This document shows, piece by piece, positions 19,444 to 33,586 of a DNA stretch of 49,387 bases. Every line of letters starts with the position of its first letter. Within the stretch, counting starts at the first letter, position 1. The stretch is taken from contig JAHECK010000008.1 of assembly GCA_024641785.1 (NCBI GenBank), positions 1-49,387 of the forward strand, read 5' to 3'. The DNA is from Flavobacteriales bacterium. GTDB lineage: Bacteria; Bacteroidota; Bacteroidia; Flavobacteriales_D; JAHECK01. The notes beneath the pieces are model-generated. The model worked only from the letters and a program-made list of their open reading frames with translations, ran no database searches and was not told the origin of the DNA. The position numbers and the translations under genes were made by a program.

Positions 19444-22400
19444 TTACTTTAAGAGGGTGACTGAACCGGTGATCACTTTCTTCTCAAGTGTATTCATCGT
19501 TTTATAGCTTAAGATATAAGCATAAACTCCTGCCTCGGCATAATATTCGCTATTATTTACCGATCCATTCCACTTTTCGTTAATATCGTTGCCTTCAAAA
19601 ACTAAAGTACCCCATCGATCGTAGATTTTCAAGGAAAATTCGGAAGGATCTATTGCAATTCCTTTTGCATAGAAATAGTCATTTTTCCCATCACCATTAG
19701 GAGAAAATGAATTTGGAATATATAAAGTCAGATCTTCATTCACGATTAACAACTGCGTAACAGAATTCTCACATCCAAAAACATTATAGGCAAAAAGTTT
19801 TATATAATATTCATCCGGGAGTTGATCCGGAAAGACAAAGAGTGGATTCTCTTCATAGGATTCTCCAATATTATTGATCGTATCAAATATCCAATAATAG
19901 TTTATCGCACCATTTGATTGATTTTCAAATTGAATATCAGTATTTGTGAGTGTGGTAATTTGAGGATCCATCACAAAAAATGGAAAAGGGATAGGATGAA
20001 TTGTTATAGCATTAATTGCCAAAGTATCGAATTCACATCCATCCGGAGTCACAATACTTAATCCGACATTATAATTTCCGGATTGAGTGTAGATATGACT
20101 TGCTGTATTCAAACTTTGCGCTTCAACACCATCACCAAAATACCAGTGTACTGAACTTAATTCTAAAGGGTCTGTTGTATTTGTAAAATTAACGAGATAA
20201 GGAGGGCATGCTGCTGTATCAGAATCTATCGTAAATGAAACAGGAACATTAAGTGTTGGTGAAATAACAATACAACTATCTACATCCGGTGTTTCGCATT
20301 GGTCGGAAACATAAACACAGTAGCTTGTAGGAATATCTGGCTGAACGATCGCTTCATTTCCGGGAATGATGATCCCATTCCCTAGATCCCAAGAAACATC
20401 ATATACAGAATTAATTCCCCCAATTATATTATCAACAGTTAATAGCAATTCGGTATTAACACATACGATCTGTGAAGGACTCATATCAAAGCTAATCAAA
20501 TCGGAAACAGTAACATTATAAGCAATCGAGTCAGAATAGCAGCCAAGATCATCCTGGGCATAAACAATGTAAGTAAGGTCATCGGTAAGAACACCGGTAG
20601 ATTGAAATTGACCGGGATTTGTAGTTGAAGTATTTATACCATCGGACCAATATATTGTAAAAGGGGAACCTGTTCCTCCACTTACCCATGCGGCAACTGA
20701 GGCTTGACCGTTATAACATATCGTAGTATCATTAATGCTACTAATGATAATAGGATCTGGATCTCCCACGATAATTTCCTGCAGATCAGAACAAGGACTT
20801 AGTCCAGAAAGATCAGTGATGTTTATGAAATAACTTCCTACTTCTAAATTATTTGCATTAAAGTAATCGGTATTGGAAGCGTTTAAAATCGTGGTTCCGC
20901 TTGTATCGGTCAATTGATATTGCCAGGGACCATAACCCGGTCCGCCGGAAGTGAAAATTTCAATGCTTCCATCTCCACCTAAACAGGACACGTTTGAAAC
21001 GATAATATCATTTTCCATAAATGAGTTTGAAGAAGGGATCTCAATGAAAAAAGTAGCTTCACATCCGGCATTATCATAAACATTTACCGTTTGTGTTCCT
21101 TCAAGAAGATTCTCAAATAAGAAAACATCAACATCATAATCATATTGGGTACCAAGTTCAACATAATAAGGAGCAAAACCTCCTATAACAATAATTTCTG
21201 CAGAACCGTTTGGAATTGTTCCGGCGCAATCAGATGGAGTTAAAACCGTTTCAATGGTAAGTGAAGCAGAAGTAAGGAATGCAAAACTCTCTCCGATATT
21301 AGCGTTACCGCAAATATCACTAACCCCACCATCAGCATTCGTGAGTGATAAAACATAGTCTTCATTTTCAAGCATTACCCCATCGAGGAATAGATCAATA
21401 GTTAGCGTTCCGTCTAAACCAGCATTACACCAATCTGATGAAAATCCAGTTACATTATAATTACCATTAGCTCCAACAACCTGAAAATCGAGTTCACCGA
21501 TGCTGGTACAATCTACCAGTTCAGAAAAAGCTACAGAGACTTCGTTGTTTGCACAAGAGGGCACAACTTCGACTATTACCGGTTCAACATTATCATAAAT
21601 ATCTGCTGTCGATGCTCCAAAATCTATTTCAAATCCGGCTGTAGCTCCACAACAATTGGAAATCACTAGTGCATAAGTTTCGCCGCTTACAACATTCACA
21701 TCCTGATTAAAAGCCGGTCCATTGATATCTCCGGGACCATTTGCATTTCCTGTTCCACCGAGCGCAGTGCTTATCCCGGTAGGGACATTTCCACTTCCCG
21801 TAAACAAGCCATAGGTATTACAACTTACTGAAGTAGCTGAGGAAATATTATCGCATGATATACCGGTAATATCATAAAGTGCCCAATCATAATCTCCATT
21901 TGTTTGTGGATCTGCATCCAATGAAAAATTAAATATTCCATCGCTTCCTATATCAAAAATATACCAAAGAACTTCGATCTCGGGCATTCCACATGCATTA
22001 CCGGGGAGTTCATTTGAAACATTCCCATCACCATCATTAGGAGTTGCTTCGTTTTGAATAGCAGAACAAATAGGAAGAGCTCCTAAACAGTCGGCAATAG
22101 AAGGAACGGGTTCTGGAGCGCAATCCCCACAAGATATGTTTGCAATCCATCCATCATAATTATTAATAATGAAATCGGAATCGAAATAAAAAGTAAGGCA
22201 GGTTCCGGAAGCAACAATTGAACCTGGAGAATTTGTTCCTGTAAAGATCCCTATAACTGGTGAATTTATACTAGGGCCATCATAGATATAAAGATAATCC
22301 CAAAAATTTTCGGTACTAAATTGAGTAAAGGCAGCTTGTAGACAATAAGAAGGATTAGGGTTATCAGAACAAATAGTGATCGTACTTGATTCATTATTTT

Positions 22401-23046
22401 GATAATCACCTGTAATTCCTCCACTATCGGTAAAAACAGATTGGCAGGTATTCACTGTACCTCCATCTGCAATATTTATTGGTTCAGGACATGGAGAACA
22501 AATACCTCCACAATCTATCCCGGTTTCCATTCCATTTTCTATACCATCAAAACAGGTTGCACAAGAAGAATAACAGCTTATAATTGCTTCCCAACCAGAA
22601 CCGGTGTTAATATCTCCGTCGGAGTCAAAAAAGAAAGTAAAACAACCACTTGTTGACTGAATTCCGTTTGGATAAAGAGTAGAAAGGTTATTGGTATTAT
22701 TTCCGAAAGGATTATTATATTTTCCAACATACGTACCTGAAATGGTATCAGAACCGTCCCATATGTAAAGCCAATCCTGGGAATCTGGAATATTCATACT
22801 AGTAAAATCCAGCGCGATGCATTCACCTGGTTGATCAGAACAAAAAGTAACGAGGTAGGCTTCGTTATTTATATAGAAATTATCTGAAAATGCATCCGAA
22901 TCCGTAAAAATCCCACTACAGGTATTAATGGTATTTCCGTTTTCATCTGCTATATTATAGATTTGAGAATGAAGGTCTTCCAAAAAGAAAAGCAAAACCA
23001 AAAAAGTACTTATAAGTATTTTAAAATGATGCTTTTTTAATCCCAT
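19444..23046 (-). CDS. Secreted 1200-aa CUB/PKD protein with T9SS type-B (CHU_C-like) C-terminal domain (paralog 3)
   Basis: Signal peptide; two CUB-like modules (WLYIWDGSDTISGTYVG..., LYIYDGPSINSPVIG...); CFDGIENGMETGIDCGGICSPCPEP; PKD WYFGDG; C-terminal LYIPNSFSPNGDGKNDYF...IYDRWGTLVFEG...KWNGSVN. Confidence 0.9.
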   Translation of the reverse strand: MGLKKHHFKILISTFLVLLFFLEDLHSQIYNIADENGNTINTCSGIFTDSDAFSDNFYINNEAYLVTFCSDQPGECIALDFTSMNIPDSQDWLYIWDGSDTISGTYVGKYNNPFGNNTNNLSTLYPNGIQSTSGCFTFFFDSDGDINTGSGWEAIISCYSSCATCFDGIENGMETGIDCGGICSPCPEPINIADGGTVNTCQSVFTDSGGITGDYQNNESSTITICSDNPNPSYCLQAAFTQFSTENFWDYLYIYDGPSINSPVIGIFTGTNSPGSIVASGTCLTFYFDSDFIINNYDGWIANISCGDCAPEPVPSIADCLGALPICSAIQNEATPNDGDGNVSNELPGNACGMPEIEVLWYIFDIGSDGIFNFSLDADPQTNGDYDWALYDITGISCDNISSATSVSCNTYGLFTGSGNVPTGISTALGGTGNANGPGDINGPAFNQDVNVVSGETYALVISNCCGATAGFEIDFGASTADIYDNVEPVIVEVVPSCANNEVSVAFSELVDCTSIGELDFQVVGANGNYNVTGFSSDWCNAGLDGTLTIDLFLDGVMLENEDYVLSLTNADGGVSDICGNANIGESFAFLTSASLTIETVLTPSDCAGTIPNGSAEIIVIGGFAPYYVELGTQYDYDVDVFLFENLLEGTQTVNVYDNAGCEATFFIEIPSSNSFMENDIIVSNVSCLGGDGSIEIFTSGGPGYGPWQYQLTDTSGTTILNASNTDYFNANNLEVGSYFINITDLSGLSPCSDLQEIIVGDPDPIIISSINDTTICYNGQASVAAWVSGGTGSPFTIYWSDGINTSTTNPGQFQSTGVLTDDLTYIVYAQDDLGCYSDSIAYNVTVSDLISFDMSPSQIVCVNTELLLTVDNIIGGINSVYDVSWDLGNGIIIPGNEAIVQPDIPTSYCVYVSDQCETPDVDSCIVISPTLNVPVSFTIDSDTAACPPYLVNFTNTTDPLELSSVHWYFGDGVEAQSLNTASHIYTQSGNYNVGLSIVTPDGCEFDTLAINAITIHPIPFPFFVMDPQITTLTNTDIQFENQSNGAINYYWIFDTINNIGESYEENPLFVFPDQLPDEYYIKLFAYNVFGCENSVTQLLIVNEDLTLYIPNSFSPNGDGKNDYFYAKGIAIDPSEFSLKIYDRWGTLVFEGNDINEKWNGSVNNSEYYAEAGVYAYILSYKTMNTLEKKVITGSVTLLK

Positions 23047-23181
23047 TGAATCAATTTTTGTAAAAAATACAAATTATCTCCGATAACTTGGCTTTCTATA
23101 AATTTAATTTCCTTACCGGTAATAAATTCTTAAATCAACGATAAAATCTATAAATCTTCTTTTTATGAATTTGAAAAATAG

Positions 23182-26100
23182 TTATTTAATCAATGTAACT
23201 GTCCCTATAACTTCTACTTTTTCAGTGCTTTGGCTAATTTTATAGGCTAAAGTATATACGAATACTCCGGGTTGAGAGTAATACTCGCTACCATTAACAG
23301 AGCCATTCCATTTTTCATTAATATTATTCGTCGAGAATACTGTATTTCCCCAACGATCAAAAATAGTTAGTTGGAAAAAGACCGGATCCAGTTCTTTAGC
23401 TTTTATGAAGAAATAATCATTTTTTCCATCCCCATTAGGTGAAAAAGAATTTGGTGCATAGAGTGTAAGATCTTCTTCGATCACTAACATTTTTGTAATG
23501 AAATCAGAACATCCATATTCATTGATTACTGTTAATCGATTAAAATATTCATCGGGGTTTTGATCAGGAAAAACAAAGAAAGGATTTTCCACATGTGCCT
23601 CACCTAATTGATTGATTGTATCGAAAAGCCAATAAGATTCTTCAAATCCAATTGATTCATTATTAAACTGAACAGTAGAATTGATCAGGGTAGGAATAGC
23701 AGGATTTGTAGAGAACTCTGCAAGCGGCTCTGGAAACATCGTAATTACATCTATGATCGTAGTGTCAAAAACACAACCATCAGGATCGGTAACCGATAAA
23801 GAAACATCATAATTACCACTTTCATAATAAATATGATCTACTGTATTTATTCCTGTTGAAATGCCTCCGTCACCAAAATTCCAGCTGGCAGATGCTACAC
23901 TCGCCGGATTTGTAGTATTAACAAAGCTTGCTAAATATGGAGGGCAACTTGCAGTATCAGAAGTAACCGAAAATGAAACCGGTACATATAAGGTTGGTGA
24001 TATTGTAATACAAGAATCAACAAATGGTGTTTCACACTGATCATTTACATGGACACAATAAACCGAAGGCTCAGATGGAATTACTATAATACTATCCTGA
24101 TCGATAATTAATCCATCTCCAATATCCCAGTATACATCATATCCAAAACCTTCTCCACCAATAATATTTTCTACTCCGATCATTAATTGTGAACCCGCAC
24201 ATATTATTTGATCGGGATCCATATCAAAGCTTATTAAATCACGAACTGAGACAAGAACCTGTTCTGTTTCCGAAACACATCCTAAATTATCTTGGGCATA
24301 AACCGAAAACACCGTATTGGTTATCAAACTATCTTTTGTTATGAATTGATTTGGTCCGGTGGTAAAATTATTAATTCCATCAGTCCAATACATGGTAAAA
24401 GGAGAACCCGTACCACCTTCAACAGATGCTGAAAGATAGGTTTCTCCAAAATAACAAATGGTTGAATCATTTACTGTTGTTACAAGAATAGAATCCGGGA
24501 CATCTACATAGACCACTTGAAGGTCAGGACAAGGACTCAATCCCGATAGGTCTTCAATCGAAATATTATATTCTCCTACATCTAAATTATTCAAAACAAC
24601 ATAATCTGAATTATTTACGATAGCCAGTACTGTTCCATTTGTATCTGAAATAATGTATTTCCATGGACCATAACCGATATCACCTTGAGTGGAAATTTCA
24701 ATAAAACCATCACCTCCAACACATGAAACGTTTCCAATAACAATATCATTTTGCATATTCGAATTTGAAGTAGGGATATCGATTAGAAAAACAGCGTGAC
24801 ATCCAGAATCATCATATACATCGACTTGTTGAATTCCTGCTGAAAGATTTCCAAATACAAAAATAGAATCATCATAAGCGTATTGATTTCCAACTTCGAT
24901 ATAAATTGGTTCTATACCGCCAATAACCTGAATAGCCATCTCACCTGTAGGCTGGGTATCTGCACAATCGGATGGGCTTATATCAATATCCAGACTCATC
25001 GCCAATCCTGTAACAAATGAGAAAGATTGCAAAGAATTTACATTTCCACAAAGGTCTTGTATACCACCATCAGAACCATTTAGACTTAATACATAAGATT
25101 GGTTTTCGAGCATTACTCCATCTAATAACATGTTGAAGGTAACTCCACCACCAAGTCCGGCATCGCACCAAGTACTTGAAGCACTAATAATATTTAATGT
25201 ACCACTAGCTCCTACAACTGTAAAATCAAGTTCTGAAAGAGAGGCACATGAAATTTGTTCTGAAAACGTTACCAGAACTTCATTATTTGCACAACTTGGA
25301 ACTACTGACTGAATTACTGGATTAGCATTGTCATTAATAGAAGCTGTTGATGCACTAAAATCGAGAGAAAAACCGGTTGTAGCAGATGCTTTTGAAATAA
25401 CCAAAGCATAAGTTTCGCCTGCAAGAACAGGCAGATCAGCATTATAAGGAATCAAATTTTCAATATTATTAATCCCTCCATTTGCAGTACTTATACCTGT
25501 GGGACCATTTCCCCAAAAACCATTACAGCTTGCAGTTGTAGCAGATGATAAAGTGGAGCAATCCAGTCCTGTAATATCGAGTAAAGACCAATTATAGTTG
25601 TTTGTTAATGGAGTTGAATTCAAATTGAAATTTAAATTTCCACTTGTGGTAACATCGAATACATACCATACAGAATTATTATCGATGACATTACATGCAC
25701 TAGCCGGAAATATATCCGTATAATTTCCGGATCCAGAAGGCGCAATAGTTTGAAGGTCATTAATGCCACAGATCGGCAAGGCCCCTAAACAATCTGCAAT
25801 TGTTGGAACGGGTTCTGAAGCACATTCCTGGCAATCGATCGTGGCCAACCATCCACTTGCTTCACTCCATCCATCGGAGGTGAATTTAAATGTTAAACAT
25901 TGATCAGAAGCCAGAACGGATCCAGGTCCAACCCCATTTCCATAAGTTCCGATAAGAGGATAAGCAGTAGAAGGACCATCATAAATTTTTAGATTATCTC
26001 CCCAAGTCACATCAAATTGAACAAAGTTGACAAATAAGCAATAGTTTGGATTCGGATTATCGGAGCATATTGTGGTAGTATAATTCTCTCCATTTTCATA

Positions 26101-26742
26101 ATTATCTCCTATATCTCCACTATCTACAAAAATATTACCACAGGTATTTACAGTCCCTCCGTTTGCAATATTTACCGGTTCCGGACAAGGAGTACAAATT
26201 CCACCGCAATCTACATCCAGTTCCATTCCATTTTCAATCCCATCATAACAAGTAGGACAAGGACCTCCACAAGTTACAATTGCGCTCCAACCATTACCTG
26301 TATTTAAGTTACCATTTGAAATAAAAACAAAAGTCAAACATCCCGAAGTCGACTGGATTCCGTTAGGATACAAAACCATTAAATTATTAACATTTGAACC
26401 AAAAGGATTATTGTACCTTCCAATATAGGTTCCACTGGTTGTATCAGCTCCATCCCATATATAAAGCCAATCTTGTCCATCCGGAATACTAAATTGGGTA
26501 AACTCCAATTGTATACATTGGCCCACCGTACTCGAACATAAGGTAACCATATAGGACTCATTATTTATGTAGAACTGATTATTATATGCATCAGAATCTG
26601 TAAAAGTTCCGCCACAGGTATTAATTGTATTGCCATCTTCAGTAGCAATATTATACACCTGGGCATATAAAGTCTGCATTCCAAATAGTATGCTAAGTAT
26701 AGTTGTTATCGTAATTCTCATTCTTTTTCTCTTAAAATCCAT
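23182..26742 (-). CDS. Secreted 1186-aa CUB/PKD protein with T9SS type-B C-terminal domain (paralog 2)
   Basis: Collinear with the 19444-23046 protein along its length; C-terminal LYAPNSFSPNGDGKNDYFF...IFDRWGNTVFST...KWNGSVNGSEYY. Confidence 0.9.
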   Translation of the reverse strand: MDFKRKRMRITITTILSILFGMQTLYAQVYNIATEDGNTINTCGGTFTDSDAYNNQFYINNESYMVTLCSSTVGQCIQLEFTQFSIPDGQDWLYIWDGADTTSGTYIGRYNNPFGSNVNNLMVLYPNGIQSTSGCLTFVFISNGNLNTGNGWSAIVTCGGPCPTCYDGIENGMELDVDCGGICTPCPEPVNIANGGTVNTCGNIFVDSGDIGDNYENGENYTTTICSDNPNPNYCLFVNFVQFDVTWGDNLKIYDGPSTAYPLIGTYGNGVGPGSVLASDQCLTFKFTSDGWSEASGWLATIDCQECASEPVPTIADCLGALPICGINDLQTIAPSGSGNYTDIFPASACNVIDNNSVWYVFDVTTSGNLNFNLNSTPLTNNYNWSLLDITGLDCSTLSSATTASCNGFWGNGPTGISTANGGINNIENLIPYNADLPVLAGETYALVISKASATTGFSLDFSASTASINDNANPVIQSVVPSCANNEVLVTFSEQISCASLSELDFTVVGASGTLNIISASSTWCDAGLGGGVTFNMLLDGVMLENQSYVLSLNGSDGGIQDLCGNVNSLQSFSFVTGLAMSLDIDISPSDCADTQPTGEMAIQVIGGIEPIYIEVGNQYAYDDSIFVFGNLSAGIQQVDVYDDSGCHAVFLIDIPTSNSNMQNDIVIGNVSCVGGDGFIEISTQGDIGYGPWKYIISDTNGTVLAIVNNSDYVVLNNLDVGEYNISIEDLSGLSPCPDLQVVYVDVPDSILVTTVNDSTICYFGETYLSASVEGGTGSPFTMYWTDGINNFTTGPNQFITKDSLITNTVFSVYAQDNLGCVSETEQVLVSVRDLISFDMDPDQIICAGSQLMIGVENIIGGEGFGYDVYWDIGDGLIIDQDSIIVIPSEPSVYCVHVNDQCETPFVDSCITISPTLYVPVSFSVTSDTASCPPYLASFVNTTNPASVASASWNFGDGGISTGINTVDHIYYESGNYDVSLSVTDPDGCVFDTTIIDVITMFPEPLAEFSTNPAIPTLINSTVQFNNESIGFEESYWLFDTINQLGEAHVENPFFVFPDQNPDEYFNRLTVINEYGCSDFITKMLVIEEDLTLYAPNSFSPNGDGKNDYFFIKAKELDPVFFQLTIFDRWGNTVFSTNNINEKWNGSVNGSEYYSQPGVFVYTLAYKISQSTEKVEVIGTVTLIK

Positions 26743-26747
26743 TTCAA

Positions 26748-29700
26748 TTAACGAATTACTGTAATATTTCCAGTAATTTCTTTTTTCTCATAGGTAGTTG
26801 CAGATCTGACAACAATACGATAGACATAAACTCCTGATTGAACATAGTAATCAGAAGAAGCATCCGCTCCGCTCCACTTTTGATTTAAATCTCTTGTCTC
26901 AAATACCAATTTTCCCCATCGATCATATATTTGCATGGAATAATCGTTTGGATTTAAGTCAGTTCCCGTAGGTCCAAAATAATCATTGTAACCATCTCCA
27001 TCAGGTGTAAATGAATTAGGGAGATAAATTAAAAAGTCTTCAAATATTTCTATATACACAACGGTATCATGAATACAGTCGAAAATATTAGTGACTTGAA
27101 GATACACTGGATAGATTCCAGGAGTATTATCAGGAAAATAGAAGCTTGGATTCTCTTCTATTGAAGTTCCAATACTAGGATCACCTTCAAAGAACTCCCA
27201 ATAATTTTCGTTGTTATTCATACTAAGATTTATAAAAGAAACCTCTGAATTTAACATTGTTGGATGGCCCGGAGAATATTCAAAACTTGCAATAGGATAG
27301 CCATTTGATTGTATATAATTTGTTATCACGGTATCTTGGTAACAACCATCAGGTGAGACCACATTCAGAGATACTGTAAAATAACCCGGATTTTCATATA
27401 CATGATAAGGACTTATATCATTTGAATTATCACCGTCACCAAAAGTCCAGCTTGAACCTGCATTTAAATTAGGATCGGTCTGATTTATGAATTGAATTCC
27501 TGCAGGAAAACAACCACTTGTAGTATCACTGGTAAAAGAAGCATTCGGTTGCGTATAAAAATGAACATATATAGAATCCATTTTCATCGGAGTTGAACAA
27601 GTATCAATTACAGAAAGATAATACCAAGCTTCTTCAGTTGGAATTAAACCTAAACTATCTGCACTTCCATTAAGGGCATTTCCATCTTCATCAAACCAGA
27701 AGAAGGTATATACATCATATAAATTACCCGTAGTATATGACCCACCACTTACATTATTCGGATGAAGAATGAGAGGTGTATTGACACAGATCTGAGTATC
27801 TGCTGGCATATTAATAGAAATAGGAGGGAAAATATCCACTTTTGGATACTTTGGATTGGATAAACAACCATTTGAATCTTCCGTTATTACAATGTATACC
27901 GTTGGATCTAACGTTAAGGTATCTACAATAACCGTTTGGTAAGGATAGGTATCAAAAGTAGTACCCTGAGGAGTTGTCCAATGATGAATAAAACCTCCAT
28001 TACCTCCACTTGCATGTGCTCGCAATTCTGCGACACCATTAATACAAATACTTGTATCAGCAAAAGGCGTAGTTAAGATCGCAGGAGGCTCAGCTACTAC
28101 TATAGTGTCATATATCGGACAATAATTAGGTGCCGGAACACTTACTTGGATTTGATAGATTCCGGCAGGTAAATTAAAGATTGTATCAGGCACTAGATCA
28201 TCCAATGGAGGAAGTGTACTTTGATTATTTAATGGGTCAATAAAAATAAAATCAAATGGTCCGGGATTACCTAGTCCATCTACCCAAACTTCAATATATC
28301 CATCAGAATATCCTGCACAAGATGCCGGTAAAGTATCATTATACAAATCGAATGAACAACAAGCCGCTGTTCCGATCGGGCTTATATTCACCTCTAATTC
28401 GGCTGTTTTAGTACAACCGGTGGCAGGATTTGTAATTGTATAATAAAAAGTTTCGTCTATTTCAAGAATAGGATCAAAACTGGTTACCACATCTCCAATA
28501 TAATTGGTCCAAACACCACCGGCATCTGGAGTTCCATTCAATAAAGCTTCATCTAAAGTGATAATCCCTTCATTCCAGCAAGGATTATAAACAGCATCAT
28601 CTCCTGCATCGATCGAAGGATCTAGCATCACTGTTATTTGTGCTGTTGATGCACATCCGGGCAAACCAAGTGGATAAGCAGTAACGGTATACACTAAAGT
28701 ATCTTGAAACAAAGTAACATTTGTTGTTGCTTGACCAGGAGTACTCAATCCCGTAGTTGGTGACCATTGATATACGAAGAGACCTGGAGGACTTCCTACC
28801 ATTGAAGCCTGAAGTGTTCCGGTACCATCACATAGTACGGGATTACCTCCCACTACTATCGCTTGCACTTGATAATCAACTACTGTAACAGTAATTGTAG
28901 AATCGAAGGTACATCCAAAGTTATTCTCGACAACAAAAGTATAATCAAATTGACCTTGCGATTGTGGATCGATGGTAATCACATTTCCGTTTGCACTTGT
29001 ATTTACGATGTTTGCACCCGATGGATCCCAATAAGATGAATCAGAATTTGTCCCAATAATCGGCGTAAAAGAAACCAACTCCGGATATAGGTCAGGATCA
29101 AGATTGATAGACCATCCCGGAATAGAACCATCATCTGCTCCCCAAAGATCCGTGAATAATAAAGTCCAAACTCCGTTGATCGGGCAACCTTCCAAATCAC
29201 CTAAAAAATCTTCTACCGGAGCATAATCACCCTCGGGCAGGGTTCCAACAGAAGCACTTGCCTCCACCCAAGTTTGGGTTGCATCGGCAGTAAAACAATA
29301 ATGCCAAGGTTCTCCATAGGTATCCGGATTATCACAATCGATAGGATAATCTTCAGGAATACCCAGATAGGTACCTCCTCCTCCTTGTTGATGTAAAGTC
29401 AATATATTTCCATTCGGACATTGTACTTCCAGCACAAAATCTCCCATAAATGAATGCTCGATATCGATACAAATACTAACGATGTCAGATAAGTCATCAA
29501 TCACTTCTCCGGCTCCAAATCCACTAACAAACATTGGAGTTGTTTGTAAAACACCAAATGCATCTGTCATACAATTATCTTCCACATAAATTGAAAGTGG
29601 AGAATCTACCCAAGTTTGAGCATATTCATCAGGATAGGCATATAAACTGAATTGCCCGTTTAAAAGACACACGGTAGTATCACTAGAAAAAGGATCGAAA

Positions 29701-30518
29701 GAAGGATAAGTTGAAATGTAGACCTGTAAGCTGATCAGGTTAATATTATCACAACCATTATCATCGGTTGTAAACAATTCAACTACATAATGACCGGGTT
29801 GTGCATAGGCATGAGAAACAAGAGCACTATTGGTGTTATCGTCAATCCCATCTCCAAAATCCCAATATAAATTATCGATTGCAAATCCGGGTGCAGGCAA
29901 TCCATAACCTGAGAAGTCGATCATTTCACCAACACAAGCGGCGATACTGTCTCCCTGAATATTATCCGCATTTAAAATTTCACCTACGGCTGTTGGAGGA
30001 TCACATGGTGTAGCGCATGATATTTGTGCAGCAAAATTTCCTGTTCCAATCGAATTTGAAGTAAAATTAATCGTTAAACATCCGCTTGGATTTGCCGAAG
30101 TGGCTGAACCTGTTTGATTTGCTAATTGAGTACCTGTATAAGAACCTAAAGTTGGGGGACCAACCGCATCAGGTCCATCCCAAATTGATAAATAATCAAC
30201 ATTAGATTGATTTGGGTTCGGGTCATCATCAGTTAAATTTAAACTAAAGAGCGTAAAATTTAATGTGATCAACTCACCTGGTGTATCAGGACAGATAGTT
30301 ACTGTGATGTTTTCATCATTACTATAATCATTTGGTCCATTACCCCCACTATCGATAAGCCCTCCCTCACAACCAGTAAAGGTTTGTCCGTTCGACCCTG
30401 CATCCATTATTACCTGAATTTGCGCATAGGAAATACTACTCGCTAACATTAAGATTAAAAGGGTGAATAAGACGGGTAATTTCCTTGAAGTGCTCATTGG
30501 GTTAACATTGATTTTCAT
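26748..30518 (-). CDS. Secreted 1256-aa protein: CUB, PKD, proprotein-convertase P-domain-like module, PKD, T9SS type-B C-terminal domain
   Basis: CUB-like VDYLSIWDGPDAVGPPTLGSYTG; PKD LYWDFGDGIDD; P-domain-like VSICIDIEHSFMGDFVLEVQCPNGNILTLHQQGGGGTYLG...GVWTLLFTDLWGADDGSIPGWSINL; CHU_C LYLPNSFTPDGDGYNDYFGPTG...IYDRWGKLVFETRDLNQKWSG. Confidence 0.9.
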   Translation of the reverse strand: MKINVNPMSTSRKLPVLFTLLILMLASSISYAQIQVIMDAGSNGQTFTGCEGGLIDSGGNGPNDYSNDENITVTICPDTPGELITLNFTLFSLNLTDDDPNPNQSNVDYLSIWDGPDAVGPPTLGSYTGTQLANQTGSATSANPSGCLTINFTSNSIGTGNFAAQISCATPCDPPTAVGEILNADNIQGDSIAACVGEMIDFSGYGLPAPGFAIDNLYWDFGDGIDDNTNSALVSHAYAQPGHYVVELFTTDDNGCDNINLISLQVYISTYPSFDPFSSDTTVCLLNGQFSLYAYPDEYAQTWVDSPLSIYVEDNCMTDAFGVLQTTPMFVSGFGAGEVIDDLSDIVSICIDIEHSFMGDFVLEVQCPNGNILTLHQQGGGGTYLGIPEDYPIDCDNPDTYGEPWHYCFTADATQTWVEASASVGTLPEGDYAPVEDFLGDLEGCPINGVWTLLFTDLWGADDGSIPGWSINLDPDLYPELVSFTPIIGTNSDSSYWDPSGANIVNTSANGNVITIDPQSQGQFDYTFVVENNFGCTFDSTITVTVVDYQVQAIVVGGNPVLCDGTGTLQASMVGSPPGLFVYQWSPTTGLSTPGQATTNVTLFQDTLVYTVTAYPLGLPGCASTAQITVMLDPSIDAGDDAVYNPCWNEGIITLDEALLNGTPDAGGVWTNYIGDVVTSFDPILEIDETFYYTITNPATGCTKTAELEVNISPIGTAACCSFDLYNDTLPASCAGYSDGYIEVWVDGLGNPGPFDFIFIDPLNNQSTLPPLDDLVPDTIFNLPAGIYQIQVSVPAPNYCPIYDTIVVAEPPAILTTPFADTSICINGVAELRAHASGGNGGFIHHWTTPQGTTFDTYPYQTVIVDTLTLDPTVYIVITEDSNGCLSNPKYPKVDIFPPISINMPADTQICVNTPLILHPNNVSGGSYTTGNLYDVYTFFWFDEDGNALNGSADSLGLIPTEEAWYYLSVIDTCSTPMKMDSIYVHFYTQPNASFTSDTTSGCFPAGIQFINQTDPNLNAGSSWTFGDGDNSNDISPYHVYENPGYFTVSLNVVSPDGCYQDTVITNYIQSNGYPIASFEYSPGHPTMLNSEVSFINLSMNNNENYWEFFEGDPSIGTSIEENPSFYFPDNTPGIYPVYLQVTNIFDCIHDTVVYIEIFEDFLIYLPNSFTPDGDGYNDYFGPTGTDLNPNDYSMQIYDRWGKLVFETRDLNQKWSGADASSDYYVQSGVYVYRIVVRSATTYEKKEITGNITVIR

Positions 30519-30540
30519 ATATATGTAGGTCTTAAAGTAC

Positions 30541-31839
30541 TTATTTTGTTGTTATTAAAATGGTTCCTTTATAAACGGATCCATCTTCGGTTATGACTGA
30601 CCAGGCATAGGCCCCTTCATTCATTTTATTTCCATTATTCATAAATCTTCCATTCCATGGAAGTTCAAAATTACTCGTTTCAAATATCATTTGACCTGAT
30701 TTAGGATCATAGATCTTCAAAGTAAAACCTTGATTCAAATAAGGGATTGCTTGTGGAATGAAAGTGTCATTAATTCCATCACCATTTGGTGAAAACGCAT
30801 TTGGTGCAAGCAGATTAAAGTCATTTTCTATTATGAAATGAGTAAAGGCTGTATCGCTGCATTGAAATTGATTGAATACTACTAAGCCAACAGAGTAGCT
30901 TCCTTTCTTAGCGAAGATTTTTTCAACCACTTCTTTATTCTCAATTCTTTCATCATTAAAGATCCACTCCAAAGAAGAGGAATTCTCACTTTCTGAATTA
31001 AAAGTAACTTTTGGATTGGCGAGCATGTTATCTCCCATTTTCATATCGAATTCTGCCGATGGAATTGAATTCACTTGAATAGAATAGCTTTCGTTTAGAA
31101 TCCGATCTTCGTATAACACAGATTTAGCACTCAGCTTCAATAAGTAGTTTCCTGCCTCACTATAAACATGAACCGCAGTTGGTCCTTCAGCACTGCTTCC
31201 ATCACCGAAATCCCAATGGATCTCCACCGGCTCATTTGAATTCGCAAGGGATAGCATCAGCATTTCATTCAAACAGATAGTCTGCGCATTGATGTGAATA
31301 CCAATACTTAACTTTTCTGTTTCATCTTCCTTTTGAATTAAAATAAGCTCTTTTTCTTCCGCTTTAGTATTTTTATCTACTTTACTTCCTACTGCAGATC
31401 CATCGTTCAACTCTTTTGGAGCATTTGCTTCTTTTTCAACTACAGAAGTATTTTTTTCTTTTTCCTTATTGACAAGAGGAAGGATCACTTCATTCGTTTG
31501 ATCTTCCATTTCTAGATTATTGTGATCTTCTACATTCTCACTATTTTCATCTACTTCAATTGATGGATCAACTGGCGTGATCTCGACTGAGTTCTCTGGA
31601 GGAGTACTAACAGGAAGAGTGCTCATACCCGGATCATATGCAAAATAGGCTATGATAATAGCTGCGGCCACTGTAGCGGAAATAATTCCTATTCTCCAAT
31701 TTGTGAATGGAGAATTCGGTTTTACATTGATCTTACTTTCAATGTTTTTCCAGGCTGTGTCATCAAAAGGCACATCATACTTATTGATCGCTTCACGTAT
31801 CTTCTGATCAAATAGTTTTGGATTATCCATAAGTTTCAT
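30541..31839 (-). CDS. Single-pass membrane protein: anti-sigma-like cytoplasmic N-terminus, TM (~31639-31695), PKD + CHU_C-like extracytoplasmic region
   Basis: FDQKIREAINKYDVPFDDTAWKNIESKI; TM NWRIGIISATVAAAIIIAYFAY; PKD IHWDFGDGSSAEGPTAVHVYSEAGNYLLKLS; C-terminal NLLAPNAFSPNGDGINDTF...LKIYDPKSG...LPWNGRF; start overlaps the sigma gene stop by 17 nt. Confidence 0.8.
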   Translation of the reverse strand: MKLMDNPKLFDQKIREAINKYDVPFDDTAWKNIESKINVKPNSPFTNWRIGIISATVAAAIIIAYFAYDPGMSTLPVSTPPENSVEITPVDPSIEVDENSENVEDHNNLEMEDQTNEVILPLVNKEKEKNTSVVEKEANAPKELNDGSAVGSKVDKNTKAEEKELILIQKEDETEKLSIGIHINAQTICLNEMLMLSLANSNEPVEIHWDFGDGSSAEGPTAVHVYSEAGNYLLKLSAKSVLYEDRILNESYSIQVNSIPSAEFDMKMGDNMLANPKVTFNSESENSSSLEWIFNDERIENKEVVEKIFAKKGSYSVGLVVFNQFQCSDTAFTHFIIENDFNLLAPNAFSPNGDGINDTFIPQAIPYLNQGFTLKIYDPKSGQMIFETSNFELPWNGRFMNNGNKMNEGAYAWSVITEDGSVYKGTILITTK

Positions 31840-32407
31840 TGTATGCTTTATGCAAATATTTTCTTAAATTTTGTTTGGCTTTCGCCAGATTCGATTTTGA
31901 AGTTCCAACACTTATATTTAGCATTTCTGCTATCTCTTTATGTGAATATTCCTCTATAACATATAAACTAAATACGGCTTTATAAGCCGGAGTTAATTTT
32001 TGAATCGCATCCATTACCAGTTTTGGATCTAATTCACCTTCTACTTCGAAAGGGTCCATCTCCTTATCTGAAAAAGCATCCATTTTATCATCTTCACCTA
32101 AAAGAATATGATCTTTCTTTTTTCTACGAATATTATCAATGGCATTATTCACGAATATTCTTCTCATCCAACCTTCAAAAGAACCTTTGAACTCATATCG
32201 CTTCAAATTTTTGAAGACTTTAATAAAACCTTCCTGAACCATATCGTTTGCTTCTTCCCTATCCTTGGAATATCTTAAACAAACAACCGTCATGTTCTTA
32301 TAAAACATTTCGTATAACCGGTATTGAGCTTTTTGCTCATTTCGCAAACAGCCTTCAATTATCGGTTTTAGTTCTTCTTTTCTTATATTTTCGCTATATG
32401 AATTCAC
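31823..32407 (-). CDS. ECF-type RNA polymerase sigma-70 family factor (GTG start)
   Basis: YSKDREEANDMVQEGFIKVFKNLKRYEFKGSFEGWMRRIFVNNAIDNIRR (region 2); LTPAYKAVFSLYVIEEYSHKEIAEMLNISVGTSKSNLAKAKQNLR (region 4). Confidence 0.93.
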   Translation of the reverse strand: MNSYSENIRKEELKPIIEGCLRNEQKAQYRLYEMFYKNMTVVCLRYSKDREEANDMVQEGFIKVFKNLKRYEFKGSFEGWMRRIFVNNAIDNIRRKKKDHILLGEDDKMDAFSDKEMDPFEVEGELDPKLVMDAIQKLTPAYKAVFSLYVIEEYSHKEIAEMLNISVGTSKSNLAKAKQNLRKYLHKAYNETYG

Positions 32408-32612
32408 TTTGATAACGATACCTTTCTTTATAGGTTGCCAAGAGATTTAATTAGTTTGGCTAAATATACAATCCTAATTGAAAAAAAGGAGTGAAAGCCC
32501 TTTTAATTAAGACTTGTTTCACAAAAAATTACGCTTTCGTTATTCTATAAATTTTGACTTACAAAAAAGTGTCTTTGGTGATTAAAATCATGCCCATCGT
32601 ATTTTTTCTTTT

Positions 32613-32629: not shown

Positions 32630-33586
<957 letters not shown>

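Follow-up and report, generated by a model that had tools for sequence, protein, structure and literature searches.

A conserved regulatory gene pair was identified on the minus strand of positions 1 to 49,387 of the contig JAHECK010000008.1 (GenBank assembly GCA_024641785.1, Flavobacteriales bacterium), a stretch hereafter called the window. Five open reading frames (ORFs) in series encode an extracytoplasmic function (ECF) sigma factor of 194 aa, a membrane protein of 432 aa, hereafter the sensor, and three large proteins of 1256, 1186 and 1200 aa with features of type IX secretion system (T9SS) type-B cargo. From its sequence, the most plausible reading of the 432-aa "sensor" is that of an anti-sigma factor to the ECF sigma, and the two almost certainly constitute a sigma/anti-sigma pair. 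The best explanation overall, which we regard as reasonably probable, would be an ECF sigma held by an anti-sigma carrying a modified and retained type-B targeting region of the T9SS.

The distribution of the pair was followed in 60 related genomes, in a species collection scanned with the sigma alignment and in a class-wide sample. A full-length sensor was found in about half of the 60 related genomes and the sigma gene precedes every one inspected; the species collection gave 80 named loci, mostly from genomes of Crocinitomicaceae, Cryomorphaceae and other Flavobacteriales, and the class-wide sample further pairs in other families (pairs are present in, among others, Cryomorpha ignava and Brumimicrobium oceani). 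A phylum-wide search with the whole sensor returned mostly CHU_C proteins of the cargo type and, with four candidates scored per genome, says little on the absence of the sensor. Of the 95 full-length sensor genes, 93 have the sigma gene immediately 5' on the same strand; the gap is -4 nt at the median and the two genes overlap in 64 cases. At least one CHU_C protein longer than 500 aa follows downstream in the same direction in only 30 of the 74 loci that could be evaluated, and the conserved unit is thus the pair and not the five-gene locus. On these comparisons sigma and sensor have long been kept together as a unit, whereas the giant cargo genes vary between loci, and the conserved neighbourhood foreseen in a first-pass annotation of the window holds for sigma and sensor but not for the five genes together. 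In one genome of the same genus (L050) all five genes recur in this order.

The sensor gene (30541..31839, minus strand) was analysed by Pfam, an AlphaFold model and alignments. The protein contains a cytoplasmic two-helix module (aa 7–37), two PKD domains (aa 180–240 and 247–337) and a C-terminal CHU_C domain (aa 345–429); the latter scores 50.4 bits with Pfam and 38.0 bits with TIGR04131 (cut-off 35), and PKD is also above its cut-off. The AlphaFold model (mean pLDDT 76.9) predicts short helices at 7–19 and 27–37 and a membrane helix at 53–67, within a transmembrane segment placed at about 50–68, with pLDDT above 90 nearly throughout 180–430, where three beta domains are formed, and below 50 over most of 71–170. 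This last region, about aa 71–170, is a disordered tether, taken as ~110 aa here, that measures 101–136 aa across sensors (5–95% range) and has no conserved sequence. Net charge across sensors is +1.9 before the membrane helix and -0.6 after it, which places the N-terminus on the inside. When a signal peptide was searched for in the sensor none was found, the only hydrophobic stretch beginning near residue 50, behind the cytoplasmic module.

A profile of the cytoplasmic module alone, run against the 2,799 proteins of all loci, matched the sensors and those partners of the same sigma that are truncated or shorter, and beyond these only two proteins at E < 0.01 (L169 and L123:5865-7172), both situated behind other ECF sigmas. 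Such confinement to sigma partners is the behaviour expected of an anti-sigma module. Together with the linkage in 93 of 95 cases and the single transmembrane helix, this bears out the earlier proposal that sigma and membrane sensor form one unit. If the genes instead made up an ordinary operon behind an unrelated sigma, sharing a strand by chance or through simple co-expression, the 432-aa product would be a surface protein with an uncleaved signal anchor. The 44 evaluable loci without a giant cargo behind the pair could be taken in favour of this, but it is already contradicted by the pairing itself, mostly of overlapping genes, and further by a cytoplasmic module common to other sigma partners and by the conserved promoter described below, and it is hardly credible.

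As a separate observation, the two-helix module is tandemly duplicated in some sensors (L061:16153-17574, L062:7010-8425, L067:2306-3724 and L068:16062-17471).

The sigma factor (31823..32407, minus strand, GTG start) consists of Sigma70 regions 2 and 4 only (Pfam Sigma70_r2, 1e-14; Sigma70_r4_2, 2e-16), and TIGR02937 of NCBIfam is above its cut-off. When analysing 105 regions upstream of sigma genes the motif GGCAAC-N15..17-CGT was found in 80, against an average of 0.11 in dinucleotide shuffles, and typically about 42 nt 5' of the called sigma start; in 71 of the 80 the spacer after GGCAAC is 16 nt. The window contains one site without mismatch, GGCAACC-N15-CGTT at 32439-32414 (minus strand, 32414..32439), situated 5' of the sigma gene and also the only GGCAACC-type site in the genome of the window. 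It is very likely that the sigma gene is autoregulated via this conserved promoter of its own type, an idea put forward in the first-pass annotation and now sustained by the conservation upstream of sigma genes. The called GTG start (32407) is situated only 10 nt past the CGTT of the -10 element, which implies either a leaderless sigma transcript or a true start further in.

A further 100 GGCAAC-N16-CGTC sites were fetched from 40 relatives, with 40 sites of the reversed pattern as the only control. Outside ORFs were 70 of the 100, compared with 2 of the 40 reversed ones. For 63 sites a gene start follows within 300 nt: in 14 it is that of a complete CHU_C protein and in 9 that of a sigma gene of this family. 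These counts are not independent, since the genomes are related, and include one CHU_C-preceding site (L297) chosen with its neighbour known. CHU_C genes account for about 1% of the genes in the genome of the window (38 matches in 3.3 Mb, 3,000 genes assumed). At other sites the gene that follows encodes a Por_Secre_tail protein, a protein with SprB repeats or a PorP/SprF protein. From these neighbours the promoter set in the relatives is likely to represent a T9SS-surface regulon. Since in the relatives this promoter is also found in front of T9SS surface genes at other places in the genome, the regulon is not purely co-transcribed; of the dedicated ECF regulon with co-transcribed sensor and cargo suggested earlier, the sigma-sensor unit stands and the restriction to one transcript does not, as far as the relatives are concerned.

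Some targets of the promoter are not T9SS genes, namely genes for DUF5684 small membrane proteins and PqiA-like proteins. A DUF5684 gene next to an alaS-like gene has the same ECF-type promoter in L247, L249, L250, L254, L262, L264, L275, L276, L278, L279, L282, L285 and L287. These targets would suit a general sensor of envelope stress or periplasmic folding, one whose PKD-PKD-CHU_C part was borrowed from abundant surface proteins and is unlinked to the status of the T9SS; so would the abundance of PKD and CHU_C in the genome of the window (38 matches) and the lack of co-variation between sensor and linked cargo reported below. We consider such a sensor improbable, given how strongly T9SS surface proteins are over-represented among the targets, and given that alignments show the whole CHU_C domain of the sensor retained across many families. 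Within one family (L277, L280, L281, L283 and L286) the promoter motif is conserved in duplicate, the copies lying about 80 bp from each other around positions 300–400 of the fetched sequence.

The explanation by a retained targeting region comes from comparing the sensor with the cargo. Over its last ~235 aa (PKD-PKD-CHU_C) the sensor is homologous to the same region of the downstream type-B cargo, and when it is compared with the genome of the window its three operon cargos rank as the best matches other than itself. According to one study, efficient type-B secretion can require up to 235 residues (PMC12618676), the length of the sensor module. The signature [IVL][YFW][DNS]xWG, on the other hand, occurs in 58 of the 64 complete cargos and in none of the 95 sensors, and the sensor of the window carries IYDPKSG at the position of IYDRWG. 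Its sequence gives the CHU_C domain of the sensor the appearance of a sensing domain that resembles a secretion signal but is retained.

The same region could alternatively be exposed on the cell surface, with the C-terminal module at or through the outer membrane, both membranes spanned as in the Dma proteins and the PKD domains reading an external ligand or contact. We know of no protein that is exported while remaining anchored in the inner membrane, and the WG signature found in nearly all complete cargos is missing from every sensor. The type-B study reports that the final 100 residues of the SprB signal contain five conserved motifs, each of them needed, and that mutating any one blocks secretion (PMC12618676). 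What speaks for surface exposure is that the layout equals that of Dma1 and Dma2 (anti-sigma domain, transmembrane helix, long disordered tether, outer-membrane domain; PMC13088901), that the tether is long enough and that PKD domains are typical of surfaces, the best fold matches being fragments of the GhpA adhesin. On balance surface exposure is unlikely.

Several observations weigh against an anti-sigma with a retained type-B targeting region. One is that matching the missing WG signature to one of the five published motifs is an inference. No co-variation between sensor and linked cargo could be detected across loci (p = 0.15), which points to a general type-B or T9SS signal more than to a sensor specific for the cargo of its own locus, and the "self-reporting" character first proposed for the system is not shown. 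Neither were any trans targets found in the genome of the window at the exact consensus of the promoter, so that the system may there be a single self-contained operon. To this can be added the 44 of 74 evaluable loci without a giant CHU_C protein behind the sensor, and four close relatives of the sigma that are accompanied by short anti-sigmas of 226–244 aa without PKD or CHU_C (L129:10536-11252, L133:1811-2491, L141:10539-11273 and L152:10542-11267). These short anti-sigmas share a conserved C-terminal stretch around MGNEPVFGDM, and their loci have kept the GGCAACC promoter.

If the anti-sigma does carry a modified targeting region, its cytoplasmic module would bind the sigma and hold it at the inner membrane, while the tether would let the CHU_C-like end reach the T9SS or its shuttle machinery at the outer membrane. 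There this end would compete with real cargo for the machinery and, lacking the WG signature of exported type-B signals, would not itself be exported. Engagement at times of free export capacity would lead to the anti-sigma being pulled or cleaved and the sigma freed, and the freed sigma would transcribe its own operon, in the window including the three surface proteins, and in the relatives also genes for T9SS surface proteins and PorP/SprF. Once cargo saturates the machinery the sensor would be left unbound and the sigma would be held again. Occupancy sensing of this kind, in which a tethered, non-exportable mimic of a type-B signal competes with cargo so that the cell, by reading how much export capacity is free, tunes the transcription of its surface proteins, is put forward tentatively, as a possibility we hold at somewhat less than even.

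The three large proteins are encoded at 26748..30518 (1256 aa), 23182..26742 (1186 aa) and 19444..23046 (1200 aa), all on the minus strand. The spacing along the operon is -17 nt (sigma/sensor), 22 nt (sensor/1256 aa), 5 nt (1256 aa/1186 aa) and 135 nt (1186 aa/1200 aa), exactly as first annotated. No terminator-like site was detected in any of the intergenic gaps, no GGCAAC-type site that could serve as a second promoter in the 135-nt gap, and no match in an Rfam scan. Each of the three has a signal-peptide-like N-terminus (by eye) as well as PKD and CHU_C above the Pfam/NCBIfam cut-offs, and the genome of the window encodes SprA and 12 PorP/SprF-like genes; on these features all three are predicted T9SS type-B cargo. 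The description as three giant CUB/PKD proteins is correct for PKD, but CUB passes its Pfam cut-off only in the 1200-aa and 1186-aa proteins, which are tandem paralogues (56% identity end to end) and end in CHU_C with IYDRWG and IFDRWG, respectively. In the 1256-aa protein, which has no CUB match, the signal peptide is followed by PKD, a proprotein-convertase P-domain, PKD and a CHU_C with IYDRWG; relatives of 29–34% identity end to end occur in the same operon of another family. The label "adhesin" for these proteins reflects their domains only.

A malate dehydrogenase-like gene, identified by eye at 32651..33586 on the plus strand, is the divergent neighbour of the operon and serves as a landmark outside the system; malate dehydrogenase is the divergent upstream neighbour in 56 of the 92 loci with a known upstream gene. 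The locus, of Bacteroidota type, is also borne beside an mdh-like gene by the record CP034120.1 (L108), titled Glaciecola amylolytica, a gammaproteobacterial genus, and this record is probably mislabelled.

In FecI/FecR/FecA signalling a sigma and a membrane anti-sigma respond to a signal from the outer envelope. The pair described here shares the sigma and membrane anti-sigma, but a FecR domain was not matched in the sensor by Pfam or NCBIfam, the operon holds no TonB-dependent receptor and the sensing end is secretion-signal-like. The early remark that the locus parallels cell-surface signalling with different components agrees with this. In layout the closest likeness is to the Dma family of Bacteroides thetaiotaomicron with its ECF21 partners Das (PMC13088901), which has an N-terminal anti-sigma domain, one transmembrane helix, a long disordered tether, an envelope-reaching C-terminus and an adjoining ECF sigma, and by analogy of layout only the sensor may work like a Dma protein. 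The C-terminal outer-membrane beta-barrel, decisive for Dma, is however replaced by PKD-PKD-CHU_C and the sensor is therefore not assigned to that family; the targets here are also T9SS surface genes. The genome of the window has a second ECF sigma (L169; G000:C40, around 17276) with a long partner having the same N-terminal module, a transmembrane helix and a disordered stretch, possibly a Dma-like protein and giving no Pfam match in the portion seen.

The SigP/PorXY system of Porphyromonas gingivalis (PMC4800418, PMC7712824) likewise has an ECF sigma serving the T9SS, with the CTD protein PorA feeding the pathway, but SigP acts with the response regulator PorX, has no described anti-sigma, controls machinery genes and has a reported motif unlike GGCAAC-N16-CGTC. 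The gliding operon remFG-sprCDBF of Flavobacterium (PMC9723704) also encodes giant type-B T9SS surface proteins under alternative promoters, and one related locus (L053) ends in a gene resembling porP/sprF. That operon differs in being driven by SM4 (sigma-54) and SM5 promoters, with no anti-sigma with CHU_C described (PMC9723704), and in the window the cargos lack SprB repeats and no PorP/SprF gene is adjacent. Identity with the sprB operon, an idea raised by L060, L061, L063 and L053, was thus not supported for the window, there being neither a SprB repeat nor an adjacent sprF. Membership in the FecR and SigP/PorXY systems was rejected for the pair, as was plain type-B cargo for the sensor, which has a C-terminal CHU_C but neither the WG signature nor a signal peptide. 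The SM6 promoters of F. psychrophilum resemble the present promoter by a CGT -10 box, and their targets include T9SS components and an ECF/anti-sigma pair (PMC9723704). Nowhere in the full-text literature searched, which did not cover most subscription papers, was an anti-sigma carrying such a T9SS signal domain described.

The sensor switch is widespread in one branch of the Bacteroidota and appears to turn on its own operon and genes for surface proteins, and this suggests that these bacteria set the production of surface proteins by reading their own export machine. The finding bears on how Bacteroidota other than Porphyromonas match the production of very large surface proteins to the capacity of the T9SS, and supplies, for many families of the class, a defined candidate sigma/anti-sigma pair together with its promoter motif and predicted regulon, with a sensor domain that would itself be a modified secretion signal. 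If true, transcription of surface proteins would be controlled by free export capacity across much of one class of the Bacteroidota.

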